Assembly: GCA_001412365.1 (NCBI GenBank) | Contig: LKUE01000423.1 | Span: 1-11,265 of the forward strand | Direction: 5' to 3' | Origin: Desulfuromonas sp. SDB | Lineage (GTDB): Bacteria; SDB-A | Length of the DNA: 11,265 nt | Shown: positions 27 through 11,265 of the stretch, piece by piece | How positions within the stretch are numbered: the first letter of the stretch is position 1 | Layout: each line of letters starts with the position of its first letter | Position numbers and translations under genes: made by a program | The notes under the pieces: model-generated | Told to the model about the DNA's origin: nothing | The model's input: only the letters and a program-made list of their open reading frames with translations | Databases searched by the model: none

Positions 27-1949
27 ATGTTCAGAAAAATATTTGAATTATTTTCATTCATCAAGGGAAATAAAATACTATATATTGGTGCCATATTAGC
101 AGTAGCTCTAGCTACAGTATTCAGTTATGCCATTCCCCAAGTGATCAGGATAACCATAGATTCGATAATTGGCAACAATCCTTTGCAAACACCTTTATGG
201 ATAGACAATATAATAGAGAAATTAGGAGGCACTGAATCTATTAGAAACCAATTGTGGCTGCCAGGGGCAGTAATTGTAATACTAACTTTATTTCAGGGTG
301 TATTCACCTATTTGAAAGGAAGGTGGGCAGCTCAGGCTTCCGAACAATCCATAAAGAAGCTAAGGGATCAACTTTACAATCATCTCCAGCATTTACCTTT
401 TTCTTTTCATTCTGAAAGTAAAACTGGAGATCTTATTCAAAGATGCACTTCTGATGTGGAGACCATCCGCAGATTTTTTGCGATGCAGTTTGTGGAAATT
501 GGAAGAGCATTGATAATGCTGTTGATTGTCATACCTATAATGATTTCTCTAAATGTCAAAATGACAATTATTTCAATGATATTAGTGCCTATCATTTTCA
601 TATTCGCCATAATATTTTTTATCAAGGTAAAAGCAGCATTTAAAATGTCTGATGAAGCAGAAGGAGAACTTTCCACCGTGCTGCAGGAAAATCTTTCCGG
701 GATTAGAGTGGTAAAAGCTTTTGCCCGGCAAAAATACGAAATCAATAAGTTCCAAGGTAAAAATATGAATTATCGTAATTTAACTTACCGTTTGATCATC
801 CTGCTGGCTTGGTACTGGTCTGTTTCCGATTTTCTCTGCCTAACTCAAATTGCATTGGTTCTGGTTACAGGGGCAATGATGGCGGCACAGAACCAGATCA
901 GCTTAGGAACGCTGGTGGTTTTCACCACCTATGTGGGATTACTGTTATGGCCGGTAAGACAGATGGGAAGAGTGCTGACGGACATGGGGAAAGCTTTTGT
1001 ATCCGTCGAGCGTATTAAAATGATTTTAAATACTCACGTGGAATCCCGGATATTAATTGACAAGCTAAATCCAGATCTTCTTTTGCCCAGTTATTTAAAC
1101 ATCCACGGAGATAGAGAAGCAAAATTAATTAAAATTGAGGGAAATATTCATTTTGATCAAGTAGGTTTTCACTATCTGTCCGGTCATAAAATTTTAAGCA
1201 ACATCAGTTTCAAGGTTAAACCAGGACAAACTGTTGCTATACTGGGACCTACCGGCTCGGGAAAATCCAGTTTGGTCAATCTAATACCAAGGCTTTATGA
1301 CTACAGTTCCGGTTCCATAACTGTTGATGGAGTTGAACTTAAGGATATTGACCGTTACTGGATTAGAAATCAGATTAGTATAATTCTTCAGGAACCATTC
1401 CTTTATTCTAAGACAATTACGGACAATCTGAAAATGGGTAAAGAACATTGCAAAGAGTATGAAATCCAGGATGCCACTCAGACCGCAGCCATACATGACG
1501 TAATTACTGAATTTGACCAAGGATATCAGACCTTGGTGGGAGAAAAAGGAGTAACCCTTTCCGGAGGACAGAAACAAAGAGTAGCTATAGCCCGGGCAAT
1601 TTTGAAAAATTCACCTCTGTTGATTTTTGATGATTCATTTAGCGCAGTGGACACCGAAACTGATCTCCGTATTAGAAATGCCTTAAATAAGAAATTAGGG
1701 AAAACTACCACCTTCATCATCGCCCACCGTTTAACTACTCTCGCTCAAGCTGATTTAATTCTGGTAATGGAAAAAGGAGAAATTGTCCAGAGTGGTAATC
1801 ATCATCAGCTTATTAATCAATCTGGTCTGTACCAGAGAATTTGGGAAATTCAAAATGATCTGGAGGATGATATTCAAGCGGAAATGGATAATCCTCCAAT
1901 GGACAAGCCACTAAATAAATCTTGGCAAGGAGCTCAACGTGGAATATGA
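27..1949 (+). CDS. Heterodimeric ABC exporter, half with the degenerate Walker B (LmrC/BmrC/TM287-like)
   Basis: This is a full-length ABC half-exporter of 640 aa. An N-terminal transmembrane domain (about residues 15-325, six expected helices) is followed by a nucleotide-binding domain from about residue 370. Visible motifs are Walker A GPTGSGKS (407-414), Q-loop Q455, signature LSGGQ (511-515), Walker B LLIFD (531-535) and H-switch H567. The residue after the Walker B aspartate is D536, not the usual catalytic glutamate. In known heterodimeric exporters this marks the subunit that builds the non-hydrolysing ATP site. The loop after helix 1 (about 50-75) and the linker between the domains (about 338-370) look rather long. 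The ATG at 27 gives a normal N-terminus. The frame stays open to the window edge but has no start codon there, and only a weak GCGGGGA stands upstream. The gene overlaps the next one by 11 bases, so both are surely one operon. The exported substrate cannot be read from the sequence; a multidrug or lipid-like compound is usual for the family. Confidence 0.95.
   Translation: MFRKIFELFSFIKGNKILYIGAILAVALATVFSYAIPQVIRITIDSIIGNNPLQTPLWIDNIIEKLGGTESIRNQLWLPGAVIVILTLFQGVFTYLKGRWAAQASEQSIKKLRDQLYNHLQHLPFSFHSESKTGDLIQRCTSDVETIRRFFAMQFVEIGRALIMLLIVIPIMISLNVKMTIISMILVPIIFIFAIIFFIKVKAAFKMSDEAEGELSTVLQENLSGIRVVKAFARQKYEINKFQGKNMNYRNLTYRLIILLAWYWSVSDFLCLTQIALVLVTGAMMAAQNQISLGTLVVFTTYVGLLLWPVRQMGRVLTDMGKAFVSVERIKMILNTHVESRILIDKLNPDLLLPSYLNIHGDREAKLIKIEGNIHFDQVGFHYLSGHKILSNISFKVKPGQTVAILGPTGSGKSSLVNLIPRLYDYSSGSITVDGVELKDIDRYWIRNQISIILQEPFLYSKTITDNLKMGKEHCKEYEIQDATQTAAIHDVITEFDQGYQTLVGEKGVTLSGGQKQRVAIARAILKNSPLLIFDDSFSAVDTETDLRIRNALNKKLGKTTTFIIAHRLTTLAQADLILVMEKGEIVQSGNHHQLINQSGLYQRIWEIQNDLEDDIQAEMDNPPMDKPLNKSWQGAQRGI
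1927..1932 (+). promoter_or_regulatory. Shine-Dalgarno for the second ABC subunit
   Basis: AAGGAG lies six bases before the GTG at 1939, inside the 3' end of the first ABC gene. It supports a GTG start that overlaps the upstream stop (TGA at 1947-1949), which implies translational coupling of the two subunits. Confidence 0.8.
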
Positions 1950-3792
1950 AGGTTTCCAGGAACAGGAATTCACCAAAACACTTAAGTTTGATCTGTGGAA
2001 AAAGGTATTCAGCTACTCCAAGCCCTATAAATACTACTTGATAGGATTGTTCGTAGTTATGCTGGGGGTGGCGGTGATTGATGCGGTATTTCCTCTGATG
2101 ACCAGAACCGCCATAGACAGTTATATTACCCCTAAGAATACCGATGGATTGGGAAGATTTGCCCTGATCTACTTTGTGCTGGTGGCGGTTCAAAGCATTA
2201 ATGTCTGGCTGTTGATAGCTTTAGCCGGAAAGATTGATATGTGGATGTGCTACGATATCCGGAAACAGGGTTTCCACAAGCTGCAGTCATTATCTTTTTC
2301 CTATTACGACCGCACTCCTATCGGCTGGATTATGGCTAGAATGACCTCGGACAGTGAAAGACTGGGAGATACCTTTGCCTGGGGATTTGTGGATTTGGTC
2401 TGGGGGACAACCATGATGCTCAGTATCTCTGTAATCATGATGGTGCTCAATTGGAAATTAGCTTTGATTGTACTGGTTACTGTTCCCCTGCTGGTGGCAG
2501 TCAGCGGAAAATTTCAAACTCTAATCCTCCGAAGCTACCGCAAGGTCAGAAAAACCAATTCCAAGATAACTGGATCATTCAACGAAGGAATAATGGGGGC
2601 TAAAACAACTAAAACCCTGGTCAGGGAAAATGAAAACTTATCTGAATTTCAGAATCTAACCACCAATATGTTCAGATATTCATTTTCCGCAGCAGTTCAA
2701 TCCTCCCTGTACCTTCCCCTGGTCATCCTCATTGGAAGTGCGGGTTCCGCTCTAGCTGTATGGTTTGGGGGAAATGGAGTTATCGGAGGAGTTCTGACCT
2801 ATGGTACCTTGGTGGCATTTATCGCCTATACGGTCAGATTTTTCGAGCCGGTACAGGAATTAGCCAGAATCTTTGCTGAGTTTCAAAACGCCCAGGCATC
2901 TGCAGAGAGAATTTTTTCACTATTAGATGTCCAACCGGAAATCCAGGATTCACCTGAAGTTAAATTGAAGTTAAAAAAATTCAAACAGCAACATCCGGAA
3001 GTAGTAGATCTCCATACTAAAGTATTCTCGGAGATCAAAGGGGATATTGAATTCAAACAGGTCAGTTTTTCCTACGCCAAAGGCGAACAGGTTCTAAAAG
3101 ACTTCAATTTAACTGTTCCTGCCGGACAAACTGTAGCCATTGTAGGAGAAACTGGTTCCGGTAAGAGTACTATTGTCAATTTAATTTGCCGGTTCTACGA
3201 ACCAACCCGAGGAGAAATTTTAATTGATGGCTTGGATTACCGACTCCGCAGCATTCACTGGCTGCAGAACAACATTGGAGTGATGATGCAGTCACCCCAT
3301 TTATTCAGCGGGACCATAAAGGAAAATATTTTATACGGTAAATTAAATGCTACTGATCAACAGGTTATCCAGGCGGCAAAACTGGTTAACGCCGATAATT
3401 TTATTAATTCACTGGATCAGGGTTATGATACCGAAGTCGGTGAAGGAGGAAGCTTGCTTTCAGTGGGACAAAAACAGCTGATCTCATTTGCCCGGGCAAT
3501 ATTAGCTGATCCCAGGATTTTCATCCTGGATGAAGCCACTTCATCGGTGGATACGGAAACTGAAAAATTAATCCAGGAAGCGGTAAACGCCGTACTCAAA
3601 GACCGAACCAGCTTTGTCATTGCCCACCGTCTTTCCACTATTAAAACCGCAGACCGGATACTGGTACTGGATAAAGGTATAATCATTGAAGACGGAAGTC
3701 ATCATCAGTTAATTCAAAACCGGGGATATTATTACAAGCTCTACACCAATCAGTTCATGGAGGAAAAAGAAACCCAGCTACTGTATAATTAA
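1939..3792 (+). CDS. Heterodimeric ABC exporter, catalytic half (LmrD/BmrD/TM288-like)
   Basis: This is the second ABC half-exporter, 617 aa, with six expected transmembrane helices (about residues 30-320) and then the ATPase domain from about residue 368. Motifs are Walker A GETGSGKS (403-410), Q-loop Q451, Walker B IFILD (527-531) followed by the catalytic E532, and H-switch H563. The signature reads LSVGQ (507-511), so the central glycine of LSGGQ is replaced by valine. Its intact Walker B pairs with the intact LSGGQ of the first subunit to make one working ATP site. Its defective signature faces the first subunit's Walker B aspartate and makes the degenerate site. This reciprocal pattern is the hallmark of heterodimeric exporters and strongly supports the two proteins acting together in the cytoplasmic membrane. 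The GTG start is fixed by the AAGGAG at 1927-1932. The linker between domains (about 333-366) is lysine-rich and long. No terminator hairpin is visible after the stop; the repeat region begins at once. Confidence 0.95.
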   Translation: MEYEGFQEQEFTKTLKFDLWKKVFSYSKPYKYYLIGLFVVMLGVAVIDAVFPLMTRTAIDSYITPKNTDGLGRFALIYFVLVAVQSINVWLLIALAGKIDMWMCYDIRKQGFHKLQSLSFSYYDRTPIGWIMARMTSDSERLGDTFAWGFVDLVWGTTMMLSISVIMMVLNWKLALIVLVTVPLLVAVSGKFQTLILRSYRKVRKTNSKITGSFNEGIMGAKTTKTLVRENENLSEFQNLTTNMFRYSFSAAVQSSLYLPLVILIGSAGSALAVWFGGNGVIGGVLTYGTLVAFIAYTVRFFEPVQELARIFAEFQNAQASAERIFSLLDVQPEIQDSPEVKLKLKKFKQQHPEVVDLHTKVFSEIKGDIEFKQVSFSYAKGEQVLKDFNLTVPAGQTVAIVGETGSGKSTIVNLICRFYEPTRGEILIDGLDYRLRSIHWLQNNIGVMMQSPHLFSGTIKENILYGKLNATDQQVIQAAKLVNADNFINSLDQGYDTEVGEGGSLLSVGQKQLISFARAILADPRIFILDEATSSVDTETEKLIQEAVNAVLKDRTSFVIAHRLSTIKTADRILVLDKGIIIEDGSHHQLIQNRGYYYKLYTNQFMEEKETQLLYN

Positions 3793-3825
3793 TTCTCTGT
3801 GTTCAGGTAGGGGTGAGTAGTGGGA

Positions 3826-3843
3826 CTCTGTGTTTTCTGTGGT
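3826..3843 (+). repeat. 18-bp direct repeat, copy 1
   Basis: CTCTGTGTTTTCTGTGGT is identical to the copy at 3992-4009, 166 bp downstream. It is followed by CAATTATTTATGGG, which resembles the sequence after the second copy. Confidence 0.9.
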
Positions 3844-3861
3844 CAATTATTTATGGGTGGT

Positions 3862-3888
3862 GGGTGGCATCTGCGCAGCAGCATCTTT
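3862..3888 (+). repeat. 27-bp direct repeat, copy 1 (contains CTGCGCAG palindrome)
   Basis: This matches 3961-3987 at 25 of 27 positions, 99 bp away. The core CTGCGCAGCAG can fold on the minus strand as CTGC-TGC-GCAG. The offset differs from that of the 18-bp repeat (166 bp), so the region is not one simple tandem duplication. Confidence 0.9.
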
Positions 3889-3927
3889 TATAATCTGTGT
3901 TCCTGTGGGACTGTGTGCTGGTGGGTA

Positions 3928-3946
3928 CTGTGTTCATCAGTGGTTA
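3928..3946 (+). repeat. 19-bp element matching the cassette's left terminal repeat
   Basis: CTGTGTTCATCAGTGGTTA differs at one base out of 19 from the reverse complement of 10743-10761, and at two bases from 11217-11235. It ties this intergenic region directly to the ends of the GxxExxY cassette about 7 kb away. Confidence 0.85.
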
Positions 3947-3960
3947 TTAATTCCGGGTGG

Positions 3961-3987
3961 GGGTGGCATCTGCACAGCAGCATCCTT
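3961..3987 (+). repeat. 27-bp direct repeat, copy 2
   Basis: This is the second copy of 3862-3888, with G to A and T to C differences. The core reads CTGCACAGCAG, so the 8-base palindrome is lost, but the minus-strand hairpin CTGC-TGT-GCAG is kept. Confidence 0.9.
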
Positions 3988-3991
3988 ACCT

Positions 3992-4009
3992 CTCTGTGTT
4001 TTCTGTGGT
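3992..4009 (+). repeat. 18-bp direct repeat, copy 2, three bases from the RND stop codon
   Basis: This is a perfect copy of 3826-3843. Its TTTATTATTGGGG continuation contains the stop codon of the minus-strand RND gene (TTA at 4013-4015), so the repeat runs into the end of that coding region. Confidence 0.9.
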
Positions 4010-4012
4010 TTA

Positions 4013-6895: not shown

Positions 6896-9683
6896 AAACC
6901 ACTGGTATTAATACTAAAGTTATAAAGGTTGAAAATAGCAGACCCCCGATTATTCCTCTGCCCAAAGGGGCATGCAGAGTACTGCCCAGTGAAAACGGCA
7001 ATAGTCCCAACACTGTAGTTAGGGTAGTCATGATGATAGGTCGAAGCCGGTTCCTCGCGGCAATCTTTCCGGGAAATATTTCTCCCTGCTTCCTCAGATA
7101 TTCAGCTCTATCCACCAGCACAATGGAGTCATTGACTACTATTCCCACTAAAACCACCAGTCCGATTAGAGAAATTATATTAAGAGTGGTTCCGGTGATG
7201 ATCAGGGAAAGCATAAATCCGGAAGCGGCAAAGGGGACTGCTATCATTATCAGCAAGGGAATACGGAAGGATTCATAAAATGAAGCTAAAATCAAGTACA
7301 CCAAAAATACAGCTACTCCAAAAGCGAACAGGGCACTGAGTTGAGCCTGCTGATATTCTTTTACCTCCCCCCCCAATTCCAGCTTAAATGGGAATTCAGG
7401 TATGTTTAAATTGGTGGTGTAGGGGATTACCGCTTCAATACACCTTTTCCCATTAAATCTTACAATTCCCCGGGAGACCTCCTCCTGCTTGATTTCGGTG
7501 ATAAAATTTAAGGGGATGTTCTGTACAGTTAATTGCTGCAACTGGTCAATACCTCCGGGAGCAGTTAGATAAATGGATACAATCTCTTCCCCCCGTTCCA
7601 CCTCTACCACCTGTTCACCTTCGGTAAACATCTGTATCCGGGAGAGAATCTGATCAGTGGAAATTTCCAGTTGTGACATTATGCGGTGACGGGGATAGAT
7701 GTTGATTACCGGTATCTTTTCAGTGTAGTTGAATACTGCAGAATTCAGTTTTTCCTTCATCATCTCCAATACCACCTCACCTTCTCCGGGAGTATCATAA
7801 AATCCCCTCAGGGAAACCTCTCCCATCGAAGTAAATGCTGCCAAAACCGGATTATGATCGGTTAAAGAATATTGAATATCCTGGTAATCCTTAAATATTT
7901 CGTTTAAATCCGGTTTCCCCGGATAACCTTTGATCCGGATAACTCCATTTCCGGTATGAGCTAATCCAAATGGATCGGTTTCTCCCACCGCCAACAGACA
8001 ATCAGCACCTTGGCTGGTGAAATATTCAGTTAATCTCAATCCGATCTTTTCAGTTTCCGGAATTGAAGTATTGTAGGGAAGTTCGTATTCTAAAATTAAT
8101 TCAGCTCGGGTGGTGGGCAATGCTTGTTTGGGGACAATCCAGAATATCAATACCCCCACCACCAGGAATATAACTGAGTACAGGTAAACCATTAATTTGT
8201 GATGATAAAACCAGTCCGAAAATCTCCGGTAGATATTATTCAACTGCCGGTTGAACCGGGTTTCTCCGCTGCCCTTGATTCCCTGGGACAGTAAAGGCAA
8301 TATTGTAAAAGCGACCAGCAGGGAGAAGCCTAGAGTAATGATTACAGAAAAGGACAGGGGTTTGAGCATCATCCCCGCAATGCCGTGGATATAGATCACT
8401 GGAAAAAATACAGCCATGGTAGTTATAATTGAAGTGGTGACTGCCAATATCACTTCACTGGCTCCTTTTACCGCATCCTTGACTTTTATGATATTCTCCA
8501 GCACCACAATGGAAGCGTCCACCAGCATTCCAATAGCTAAAGCCAGACCGGCCAGGGTCATTGTGTTCACCGAAATTTTGCCCAGGTAAAAACAGAAAAA
8601 GGCAGGAACAATGGAAAGGGGCATGGATATTGCTAAAATGAGGGGGACTCTGCGGTTACCGGTAAACATGAATAAGGCGATAAAAGCAAGTAGTCCTCCG
8701 ATAATCAGGGAAATAATTATCTCTTTAATTGACTGAATAATAAATTTAGCATCATCAAAAGTTACCTGAAATTCTAATTCCGGATAATCCTTTATTATCT
8801 CTTCAATAACTCCGGAAACTCTACCTGATACTCTTACCGCATTGGTATTCCATTCTCGGTAGATTTCGATAAAATAACCTTTTTCACCATTGTAGTATAT
8901 TGAAGATGTCTGTTCCCCTTCCACTTCTTCCACCACCGCAATATCCCCAATCAAGTACCTGCCCTGCTGGAGGGGAAGATTTTTCACCTGATCTACTTCC
9001 TGAGTGCTCACCACAAACCGGATGGGAAATGAATAACTGCCTTCTCTTACCATTCCTATGGGCATGGAGATGTTGTAGCTTTCCAGGGTCTGCTTTATTT
9101 CCTCCGGGGATATACCGTAGGCATCGGTTAATTCAGGATTAATGATTACCTGTATCTGTTTTTCAGTTAATCCAATTATCCTAGCCTCGCTAACTCCTTC
9201 AATTTGCTCTAATCTCCGGGTTACTACTTCTGAAATTAGATCCCGGTCTCCTTTTACCCAAATCCCCATTATGGGCTGGGATGATGGACCGGTGGTCATT
9301 ATATTGGGACGATCAGCCTGATCAGGAAATGACCAGTAAGCAGCATCAAGCTTTTCCCTCAACTGTAGAAGAGATGCATCCACATCGCTGCTGCGGTGGA
9401 AATAAACAGTGACCAGGGATTTGCCTTCAGTGGATACCGATTTTACATCCATTACTCCTTTGATCCCGTAAACTGCTTCTTCAATCCGGGTAGTCACTTC
9501 TCTTTCCACGATTTCCGGAGAAGCACCTGAATACATGGTTACAATAGAAATCTCCGGCTTAGTTATATCGGGGAGCAGTTCATAGGGAAGATTGAACACT
9601 GATATAATCCCCAACACCATCAATGCCAAAAACAGCATGGCGGTAAATACCGGTCGGTGCACAAACAGGTTGACAAATCTCAT
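6873..9683 (-). CDS. RND efflux permease, first of the pair (HAE1/AcrB-like, short)
   Basis: This is a 936-aa RND permease, clearly shorter than the roughly 1,030-1,050 aa of AcrB-type pumps. It starts MRFVNLFVHRPVFTAML, with a classic first helix. It has the motif YSGASPEIVE (51-60), a full first loop including a docking-like region (about 170-300), the TM4 motif AIGMLVDASIVVLEN with D389 followed by A390, and the TM10 motif VVNDSIVLVD (849-858) with N851-D852. The second loop (about 520-780) is short. Just before TM7, around 750-775, it lacks a helix of about 17 residues that its neighbour keeps. The ATG overlaps the fusion-protein stop by four bases (ATGA), with AAGG ten bases upstream. 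It differs strongly in sequence from the second permease, so the pair is not a recent duplication. It is expected to use the proton gradient to export an unidentified substrate, working with the adaptor encoded just before it. Confidence 0.95.
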   Translation of the reverse strand: MRFVNLFVHRPVFTAMLFLALMVLGIISVFNLPYELLPDITKPEISIVTMYSGASPEIVEREVTTRIEEAVYGIKGVMDVKSVSTEGKSLVTVYFHRSSDVDASLLQLREKLDAAYWSFPDQADRPNIMTTGPSSQPIMGIWVKGDRDLISEVVTRRLEQIEGVSEARIIGLTEKQIQVIINPELTDAYGISPEEIKQTLESYNISMPIGMVREGSYSFPIRFVVSTQEVDQVKNLPLQQGRYLIGDIAVVEEVEGEQTSSIYYNGEKGYFIEIYREWNTNAVRVSGRVSGVIEEIIKDYPELEFQVTFDDAKFIIQSIKEIIISLIIGGLLAFIALFMFTGNRRVPLILAISMPLSIVPAFFCFYLGKISVNTMTLAGLALAIGMLVDASIVVLENIIKVKDAVKGASEVILAVTTSIITTMAVFFPVIYIHGIAGMMLKPLSFSVIITLGFSLLVAFTILPLLSQGIKGSGETRFNRQLNNIYRRFSDWFYHHKLMVYLYSVIFLVVGVLIFWIVPKQALPTTRAELILEYELPYNTSIPETEKIGLRLTEYFTSQGADCLLAVGETDPFGLAHTGNGVIRIKGYPGKPDLNEIFKDYQDIQYSLTDHNPVLAAFTSMGEVSLRGFYDTPGEGEVVLEMMKEKLNSAVFNYTEKIPVINIYPRHRIMSQLEISTDQILSRIQMFTEGEQVVEVERGEEIVSIYLTAPGGIDQLQQLTVQNIPLNFITEIKQEEVSRGIVRFNGKRCIEAVIPYTTNLNIPEFPFKLELGGEVKEYQQAQLSALFAFGVAVFLVYLILASFYESFRIPLLIMIAVPFAASGFMLSLIITGTTLNIISLIGLVVLVGIVVNDSIVLVDRAEYLRKQGEIFPGKIAARNRLRPIIMTTLTTVLGLLPFSLGSTLHAPLGRGIIGGLLFSTFITLVLIPVVYDRIFSK
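7367..7374 (-). repeat. Eight-base G tract in the first RND gene
   Basis: This is a run of eight C on the + strand, G on the coding strand, covering codons 771-772 (Gly-Gly) and flanking bases, just before TM7. A one-base slip here would remove the C-terminal membrane block of the permease. Confidence 0.9.
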
Positions 9684-10726
9684 TCAAAAACAACCTTGAC
9701 CAGGGCATCATGGGCAATGGTAAACTGGCCTTCCACCAGCACCGTATCTCCGGGGGAAACCCCCTCCACTACTTCCATATAATCCCTTCCCGTCTCCCCC
9801 ACTTCAATCCACTGCCACTTCGCTTTCCCTTCTTTTACCAGAAACACCAGAAATTTTCCTTCCCGCTGAAGTACTGCCTGCAGGGGTACTCTAATCCGGT
9901 TCTGGTATTTCTCGCTTTCAATATGTACTTCCACAATTTCACCGATCAGCCAGTGATCATTTACACTGACCAGCACTTTCCCGGTGCCATTTTGATCCAC
10001 CACCGGAGAAATCCCGGTTACCGTTCCCTGTTCTTCCCGTTGCTGATCAACTGACCTCACCAAAGCATGATTTCCCGGGGTGATGCCTCTGATTTCAGTT
10101 TGGGGTACATCCGATTCCACCACCAATCCCTGATCTGAATACACCGATAGCACCACATCTCCCTGCCGAACACTGCTTCCCTGGGCTAAGTTGACATTGG
10201 CTACCACTCCATCGAAGGGAGCGATAATATTCAAGTCCTGAATTGTTCTACTTACCGCAGTGTATTCTCTTTCCGCAGAAAGCAAACCTGAACTCACCCT
10301 TAACAAATCTTGGTTGGTGTCCCCCTGCTCCAGTGAATACTGATAACGGCTACGGGCTTTCTCCAGATCAAACAAAGCCTGTTCATATTGAGCTAGTTCT
10401 GCCCCATAACGCAATTGAGCTAATCTCTGACCTGATTCTACCCGGTCTCCTTCTTCCACATAAATCCTTTGAATATAAGTATTAGTGGGGCTTATGAAGT
10501 CAACTTTTCTCTGGGCTTCAATTCTGCCCAGGCATTCCACCCATTTCACTACATCCCCACTGTCCGCGATTGCCCCCCTTACTTCCAGGGGGGGGAGCTC
10601 ATCTAATTCACTGGCTTGTTCTTCCTGCTGATTTTTTCCTTTATCCAGAATTAGAATTTTCACTCCTACCCCAACCACTACAATCACCAGCAATATCACC
10701 AATCCAATTATAATTTTCTTAACCAT
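9680..10726 (-). CDS. Periplasmic adaptor / membrane fusion protein of the RND pump
   Basis: This 348-aa protein is of the HlyD/AcrA adaptor family. One N-terminal membrane helix (about 5-27) anchors it, and no lipobox cysteine is seen. Then follow an acidic linker (35-50), the first half of a lipoyl-like domain (about 58-105, with YVEEGDRVESGQRLAQL), a short alpha-hairpin (about 108-162), and the second lipoyl half (about 165-200, IIAPFDGVVANV and G-S-V-R-Q-G-D). A beta-barrel (about 201-280) and a membrane-proximal domain (about 281-348) ending VLVEGQFTIAHDALVKV complete it. The hairpin is short for one that must reach an outer-membrane channel. The gene is first in the operon and overlaps the RND start by four bases, so adaptor and pump are made together. 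A Shine-Dalgarno (AGGGGGAGG) lies very close to the ATG. The next in-frame alternatives (TTG and GTG, codons 9-10) would cut into the anchor helix, so the ATG is kept. No outer-membrane factor gene is in view. Confidence 0.93.
   Translation of the reverse strand: MVKKIIIGLVILLVIVVVGVGVKILILDKGKNQQEEQASELDELPPLEVRGAIADSGDVVKWVECLGRIEAQRKVDFISPTNTYIQRIYVEEGDRVESGQRLAQLRYGAELAQYEQALFDLEKARSRYQYSLEQGDTNQDLLRVSSGLLSAEREYTAVSRTIQDLNIIAPFDGVVANVNLAQGSSVRQGDVVLSVYSDQGLVVESDVPQTEIRGITPGNHALVRSVDQQREEQGTVTGISPVVDQNGTGKVLVSVNDHWLIGEIVEVHIESEKYQNRIRVPLQAVLQREGKFLVFLVKEGKAKWQWIEVGETGRDYMEVVEGVSPGDTVLVEGQFTIAHDALVKVVFE
10588..10595 (-). repeat. Eight-base C tract in the adaptor gene
   Basis: A run of eight G on the + strand corresponds to C on the coding strand at codons 44-47 (Leu-Pro-Pro-Leu), in the linker after the membrane anchor. 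Slippage would abolish everything after the anchor. A second run of six C lies at 10573-10578 on the + strand. Confidence 0.9.
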
Positions 10727-10742: not shown

Positions 10743-10771
10743 TAACCACTGATAAACACAGCAAAACACAG
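10743..10771 (+). repeat. Left terminal inverted repeat of the cassette
   Basis: It begins TAACCACTGATAAACACAG and ends CACAG, a 29-bp element. Its reverse complement gives the CTGTGTTTATC(A/T)GTGGTTA core shared with 11217-11235 and, with one change, with 3928-3946. It lies in the leader of the RND operon. Confidence 0.85.
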
Positions 10772-10798
10772 TTAATATTAATGTACAAAAAAGATTTA

Positions 10799-11170
10799 TT
10801 AATATATTCTTCGTTTAATTTCAAATTTCTCTCCAAAATTTACTAATAATCCAACTTTTATACCAGTTGCGTTTAGATAATTTAATAATTGAGCTTCGTG
10901 ATGTTTTTGCAACTGAGATACTGCTTTAATTTCAATTATTACTTTATCATCAACAATTATATCTGCTTTATATTCACCAACCAGATTTCCTTTATAATGA
11001 ATTTCTATTATTTTTTCATTATTAACTTTAAGTTTCTTAATTTTTAATTCTTCAAGCAATGCTTTATGATATACGGTTTCAAGAAAACCAATCCCTAATA
11101 TATTGTACACTTCGTAAATACAGTTAATTATATTTTTAGTTAAATCTTGATATAAAAATTTCTTACCCAT
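10799..11170 (-). CDS. GxxExxY family protein (PD-(D/E)XK nuclease-like fold)
   Basis: This complete 123-aa protein matches the usual size of the GxxExxY family. The name motif is present as G28-F-L-E31-T-V-Y34 in the first helical region, after the typical IYEVYNILG. The PD-(D/E)XK core follows: D70 in GEYKADIIV, then E80-I-K82 in VIIEIKAV, then the helix HEAQLLNYL (91-99) with Q94. The C-terminal strand GLLVNFG and KRRIY are also typical. All expected catalytic residues are present, so it could be an active metal-dependent nuclease, but the family's biological role is not established to my knowledge. The ATG at 11170 is the only start in a frame that stays open up to the right terminal repeat. 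No good Shine-Dalgarno precedes it: the nearest, AGGAA, is 17 bases away. Codon and base use are extremely AT-rich compared with the RND operon, pointing to separate origin. Confidence 0.88.
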   Translation of the reverse strand: MGKKFLYQDLTKNIINCIYEVYNILGIGFLETVYHKALLEELKIKKLKVNNEKIIEIHYKGNLVGEYKADIIVDDKVIIEIKAVSQLQKHHEAQLLNYLNATGIKVGLLVNFGEKFEIKRRIY

Positions 11171-11189
11171 AATTTTATCATTATCATTT

Positions 11190-11203
11190 CCTGCGTCAGC
11201 AGG
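11190..11203 (-). other. Small hairpin in the leader of the GxxExxY gene
   Basis: On the coding strand this reads CCTGC-TGAC-GCAGG, a five-pair stem with a four-base loop, sitting between the right terminal repeat and the start codon. The intergenic repeats at 3862 and 3961 carry the related minus-strand CTGC-N3-GCAG in the same order relative to the CACAG-rich block. Its role (RNA structure, protein site or transposition end) is unknown. Confidence 0.55.
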
Positions 11204-11207
11204 ACAT

Positions 11208-11235
11208 CTGTGTCTTCTGTGTTTATCTGTGGTTA
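11208..11235 (-). repeat. Right terminal inverted repeat of the cassette
   Basis: This 28-bp element, on the + strand, ends in CTGTGTTTATCTGTGGTTA (11217-11235). It pairs with 10743-10771 as an imperfect inverted repeat and lies upstream of the GxxExxY gene. Beyond it, 11236-11265 is AT-rich with nothing recognisable. Confidence 0.85.
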
Positions 11236-11265
11236 TTCTTATTCATTATTAATATTTCAAAATTC

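Follow-up and report, generated by a model that had tools for sequence, protein, structure and literature searches.

In REPIN/RAYT systems, the RAYT protein is a Y1/HUH transposase and the REPs are palindromes (PMC3116915). The cassette analysed here resembles these systems in its single gene flanked by short repeats, in a repeat type that is tied to the gene, and in dispersed gene-less copies, some of them in inverted pairs, but its protein is a predicted PD-(D/E)XK nuclease instead of a Y1/HUH enzyme and its ends are arrays of 9-10-bp units. In the Coxiella IVS, a single ORF is accompanied by a terminal inverted-repeat stem of 28 bp (PMC4990558). The cassette shares with 23S rRNA IVSs (S23, TIGR02436) a sub-kilobase size, one small ORF and terminal inverted repeats, but differs from them in protein family and fold and in not being located in an rRNA gene. 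As in MITEs with an autonomous partner, short gene-less inverted pairs share their ends with the gene-bearing element, but the cassette has no DDE transposase and no clear target-site duplication.

Since the RAYT enzyme is absent, the cassette is considered to work like REPIN/RAYT without belonging to it, and the 493-bp unit is probably a single-gene, REPIN/RAYT-like mobile cassette in which a PD-(D/E)XK nuclease replaces the HUH transposase. The recurrent arrays, the gene-restricted repeats and the empty site described below together look like an undescribed minimal mobile element. Alternatives in which the gene is a passenger of arrays spread by something else, a guardian of repeats or part of an element acting at the RNA level are less well supported.

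The window, that is, the whole stretch of DNA analysed (11,265 bp), is the entire contig C423 of the 433-contig assembly G000, and the contig ends 30 bp beyond the right arm of the cassette, which measures 493 bp from arm to arm. The left inverted array (TAACCACTGATAAACACAGCAAAACACAG, 10743-10771, plus strand) is composed of three CACAG-type units with its outer end at 10743. It lies 16 bp upstream of the start codon of a gene for an HlyD-type RND periplasmic adaptor (9680-10726, minus strand), which follows directly downstream of the cassette on the same strand and gives the host operon context. Between the arrays, the GxxExxY/PDDEXK_3 gene (10799-11170, minus strand) encodes a protein of 123 aa, predicted to be a Cas4/RecB-like PD-(D/E)XK nuclease. 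The right inverted array (11208-11235, minus strand) reads TAACCACAGATAAACACAGAAGACACAG on the strand of the gene, towards the gene, and an imperfect palindrome read from the sequence (CCTGCGTCAGCAGG, 11190-11203, no strand assigned) is located just inside it. The two arms are identical in 26 of 29 alignment columns and contain a 19-nt core with 95% complementarity in an inverted-repeat search of the window, and their score was reached in 2 of 3000 first-order Markov shuffles of both flanks. The GC content of the gene is 23.4%, compared with 42.3% for the window. The GxxExxY gene enclosed by imperfect inverted repeats, as described in the sequence-only reading, was therefore confirmed.

The family membership proposed in that reading from visible motifs also held. 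The ORF matched TIGR04256 (138.1 bits, cut-off 35) and PF13366 (139.8 bits, cut-off 22) over nearly the full profiles, PF13366 being the sole Pfam match at E <= 0.001, and the GxxExxY and catalytic motif residues are present. In an alignment of 64 proteins, G28, E31, Y34, Y59, E80, K82, Q94, Y98 and N111 were invariant and D70 was nearly invariant; the D-ExK and QxxxY motifs, which we assign as in RecB/Cas4 nucleases, are intact in the window protein. The AF2 model (pLDDT 94.5) has a restriction-endonuclease-like fold, and its top structural match was SSO0001 of Sulfolobus (4ic1; Foldseek E 2.6e-5; VIA-align Z 9.8 over 98 residues, rmsd 3.7), which we take to be a Cas4, followed by exonucleases and Holliday-junction resolvases. 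Weak Cas4 matches were given by PADLOC and weak matches to nucleases only by PHROGs, while a tblastn search of a phage collection returned no match and a sequence search against solved structures returned nothing useful. Judged from the model, the window protein is predicted to be a small Cas4/RecB-like nuclease that shares the predicted fold, D-ExK and QxxxY with Cas4 and RecB-AddB nucleases. Unlike Cas4, it has no four cysteines for an Fe-S cluster, since a single cysteine is found in its 123 aa, and no other cas gene was recognised in the window.

The ends of the cassette are not unique terminal inverted repeats. In each arm, CACAG-type units of about 10 bp (CCACAGATAAACACAG...) follow one another head to tail, with TAACC pointing outward, and the 19-bp core, with at most three mismatches, occurs in 63 genomic copies in G000, compared with 0 for the reversed control. 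In the window alone, the repeat pattern has 4 matches against 0.01 expected, and gene-less copies in direct orientation (3797-4010, plus strand; CTGTGTT..TCTGTGG at 3828, 3928 and 3994) are placed between the convergent ABC-transporter and RND genes. Contig C12 carries a near-identical sister of the right end together with its palindrome (L023, matching window 11189-11245), and near-identical gene-less sisters of the left end are found on contigs C175 and C35 (L031, L025). On account of the 63 copies, the gene-less copies in the window and these sisters, the cassette ends are regarded as part of a dispersed repeat. Many of the repeat copies in G000 are located at contig ends, i.e., at assembly break points. 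Gene-less copies in G000 are mostly in direct order and not in the inverted doublets of REPIN/RAYT; in other genomes, 12 of 12 close inverted array pairs among the matches listed (compiled by hand) have the same outward-CC geometry as the cassette.

Several further features of G000 were observed. Two adjacent ABC exporter genes (27-3792), possibly encoding a heterodimer, and the RND operon are transcribed towards each other, with the gene-less repeats in between. At L004, L007 and other loci, heptamer-like repeats (AACAATTAACAATTATCAATAAACAAT) adjoin the CACAG repeats, and the genome carries one TIGR02436 gene.

The arrangement recurs around GxxExxY genes of unrelated genomes. For a sample of 100 GxxExxY-bearing loci, drawn by profile score (not at random) from genomes throughout the domain, inverted similarity was scored between the 250-nt flanks of each gene; the window has too short a right flank to be included in the resulting set of 103 genes. 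A score of at least 14 was reached by 72% of the 103 GxxExxY genes, compared with 4.4% of 114 control ORFs at these loci and with 4.1% when flanks were permuted, and a score of at least 20 by 39%, compared with 1.8% of control ORFs and 0.6% of permuted flank pairs. Most arms consist of 2-4 units that repeat every 9-10 bp, and the spelling of the units varies widely (CACAGAG, CGCAGAT, CACGAAT, CACGAAG, CGCAAAG, ACAGGAT). A contig scan gave no more than four relatives, all with inverted similarity in their flanks, and the array plan was also present on three Prevotellaceae contigs. Among five named plasmid loci, those of Bacteroides finegoldii and Bernardetia have the plan, and a clear inverted array pair was absent at L271, L272 and L273. 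In G001, a genome of the same family as G000, CACGAAG units surround a GxxExxY gene with hairpins in between (L107, 1-330 and 670-900), a hairpin-laden variant of the array. At L138, L186, L122, L158 and L176, the gene is flanked on either side by long direct repeats (70-160 bp), several of which carry inverted arrays themselves, so that two copies of a small repeat element enclose it.

The unit sequence goes with the protein and not with the host genome. Between genomes, the 6-mer similarity of the arms was correlated with protein identity (r = 0.374, equalled by none of 2000 permutations; partial r = 0.373 when GC difference is taken into account), and the units of genes within one genome were no more alike than those of genes from different genomes (0.067 vs 0.069). 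At L128 and L156, the proteins are 82% identical and have units in common, with no flank match of at least 150 bp.

In addition, the arrays follow the gene. Across 366 genomes (86 GxxExxY carriers and 280 gene-free), CACAGA arrays, defined by a pattern of three units, were found in 33 genomes, of which 31 were among the 86 gene-bearing and 2 among the 280 gene-free genomes (Fisher p = 9e-20), one of the latter two also matching the reversed control. As in REPIN/RAYT, the flanking repeat is thus dispersed (63 copies in G000) and almost confined to genomes carrying the gene (31 of 33). For CGCAGA arrays, 20 of the 32 array-bearing genomes carry GxxExxY (p = 6e-7), and the exceptions without the gene include several genomes with a single match and some with tandem arrays. 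This association is correlational.

Two other gene families were considered as drivers of the arrays and rejected. For Y1_Tnp, no enrichment was observed in gene-free genomes, in which a CACAGA array was present in 1 of 134 Y1-positive and 1 of 123 Y1-negative genomes; among GxxExxY genomes, the numbers were 25 of 67 and 4 of 14, respectively. For the four-helix-bundle family TIGR02436, a CACAGA or CGCAGA array was present in 1 of the 24 genomes with only that family. Because neither family explains the arrays, their link looks specific to GxxExxY.

These surveys bear on the strongest alternative, namely that the arrays are spread by an unrelated enzyme (a Y1/RAYT transposase or the host's recombination machinery, for example), the gene having become lodged between two copies. 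G000 has about 60 arrays to one GxxExxY gene and carries one Y1_Tnp gene, and the dispersed unit type of a genome could not be predicted at a significant level from the exact unit type beside its gene, all of which is in line with a passenger gene. However, genomes free of the gene are nearly array-less with or without Y1_Tnp, and unit sequence tracks the protein across genomes, which makes this explanation unlikely. The sequence-only reading had called the unit non-autonomous; this is unproven, and the association of gene and repeat, judged from sequence comparison, points to the protein as a possible trans-acting factor.

Presence and absence at orthologous positions were compared in related genomes. 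The cassette of L109 in G096 is absent from the same spot in G363, a genome of the same genus, with flanks that are 97% and 98% identical; in G363, 18 bp take the place of about 480 bp. The junction lies between the stop codon of one gene and the start codon of the next, and the extra DNA extends from about 25 nt outside the left array to just past the right array. No perfect target duplication was found at the G363 empty site; the two sides are imperfectly alike in TGAG.A...AATA, which may be what is left of a decayed one. At this one site, a GxxExxY cassette is present or absent as a unit. It is the one clean empty site found, and the comparison is unrooted and compatible with insertion or loss. 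L120 was rejected as an empty site since the locus is rearranged. In G001 and G002, of the same family as G000, tolC-like, HlyD and RND genes stand in a row without a GxxExxY gene between tolC and HlyD; these genes share about 60-65% DNA identity with the window, where the contig stops short of the gene upstream. Conservation of the cassette at this locus in all relatives, which would have spoken against mobility, was thus not observed. Repeats flanking other GxxExxY genes, which the sequence-only reading suggested looking for, were found in unrelated genomes as the inverted arrays around 72% of 103 genes. GxxExxY genes of the same genome lacking such ends, named there as contrary evidence, do not apply here because G000 has one GxxExxY gene. 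The mobile cassette proposed in that reading thus gains support from the G363 empty site, from G001 and G002 and from the recurrent arrays, while its account of the ends needs correcting, since they are arrays of a dispersed repeat and not private to the cassette.

Some cassettes (L103/L118, L144/L158 and L121/L148) occupy equivalent positions in related genomes, so movement appears to be infrequent and turnover slow. Such conserved positions would also be expected of a guardian or domesticated nuclease that processes or restrains hairpin-forming repeats and serves a host or addiction function instead of mobility, as would the likeness of the protein to enzymes that work on DNA ends and cruciforms, namely Cas4 and Holliday-junction resolvases. 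This is quite improbable, however, given the presence and absence at an orthologous site, the scattered occurrence of GxxExxY genes with mostly different neighbours, and copy numbers of 0 to 11 per genome.

In comparing L144 of G096 with L158 of G363, two blocks of about 285 bp (L144, 774-1060 and 1932-2281) were observed in G096 that are absent at the same places in G363; with short repeats inside, they may be gene-less insertions. Conversely, an extra tandem gene-less inverted-array copy (L158, 2830-2930) lies beside the GxxExxY gene in G363 without a counterpart in G096.

The upstream neighbour was co-directional with the GxxExxY gene in 85 of 90 cases, compared with 149 of 205 other adjacent pairs (p = 8e-6), while the orientation of the downstream neighbour equalled the baseline. 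Arrays are often near the start and stop codons of GxxExxY genes, which, together with the co-directional upstream neighbour, suggests expression by read-through. A selfish element acting at the RNA level, whose arrays would pair in the transcript as in the 23S IVS so that the RNA is processed out or harmless, would account for this strong co-orientation and recalls both the Coxiella stem with its one ORF (PMC4990558) and the same plan, with 7-bp units, around four-helix-bundle (S23/IVS) genes, but it is highly improbable in view of the DNA-nuclease fold of the modelled protein and of the common direct-orientation array copies, which are unable to pair with each other.

For the mobile cassette that we favour, the following route is proposed, in which we infer the role of the nuclease in mobility, its binding and cleavage of the arrays and the way of movement. 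The cassette would insert along the direction of transcription, beside or between operon genes, and its gene would probably be expressed via read-through. Most likely, the GxxExxY nuclease nicks or cuts DNA at its own unit arrays after recognising them, and host repair would then copy or move the cassette to a new intergenic site. Gene-less array pairs could be copied or moved likewise, with the nuclease acting in trans.

More tentatively, GxxExxY proteins may in general drive the mobility of an unnamed class of minimal elements in many bacterial lineages, in which a lone Cas4-like nuclease acts on protein-specific arrays of 9-10-bp units and spreads its own cassette together with the common intergenic repeats of the CACAGAG and CGCAGAT type, S23/IVS-type proteins doing the same with arrays of 7-bp units. 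If the nuclease does mobilise the arrays, this would represent a way for a Cas4-like nuclease to move DNA on its own. The proposal offers a first functional hypothesis for the widespread GxxExxY gene family and a testable source for short intergenic repeats that recur across unrelated bacterial genomes, and the protein-specific units open DNA recognition by GxxExxY to direct testing. The family itself is already annotated; in the open-access literature, no paper on the function or ends of GxxExxY, PDDEXK_3, PF13366 or TIGR04256 and no description of two of the repeat sequences or of the flanking arrays was found.

Around TIGR02436 genes (L193-L262), inverted unit arrays with a 7-bp period were observed at 58% of 67 genes (score of at least 14), the unit lag being 7/14 there compared with 9-10 in the GxxExxY arms. 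The four-helix-bundle (S23/23S IVS) genes apparently form a second, parallel class of single-gene cassettes.
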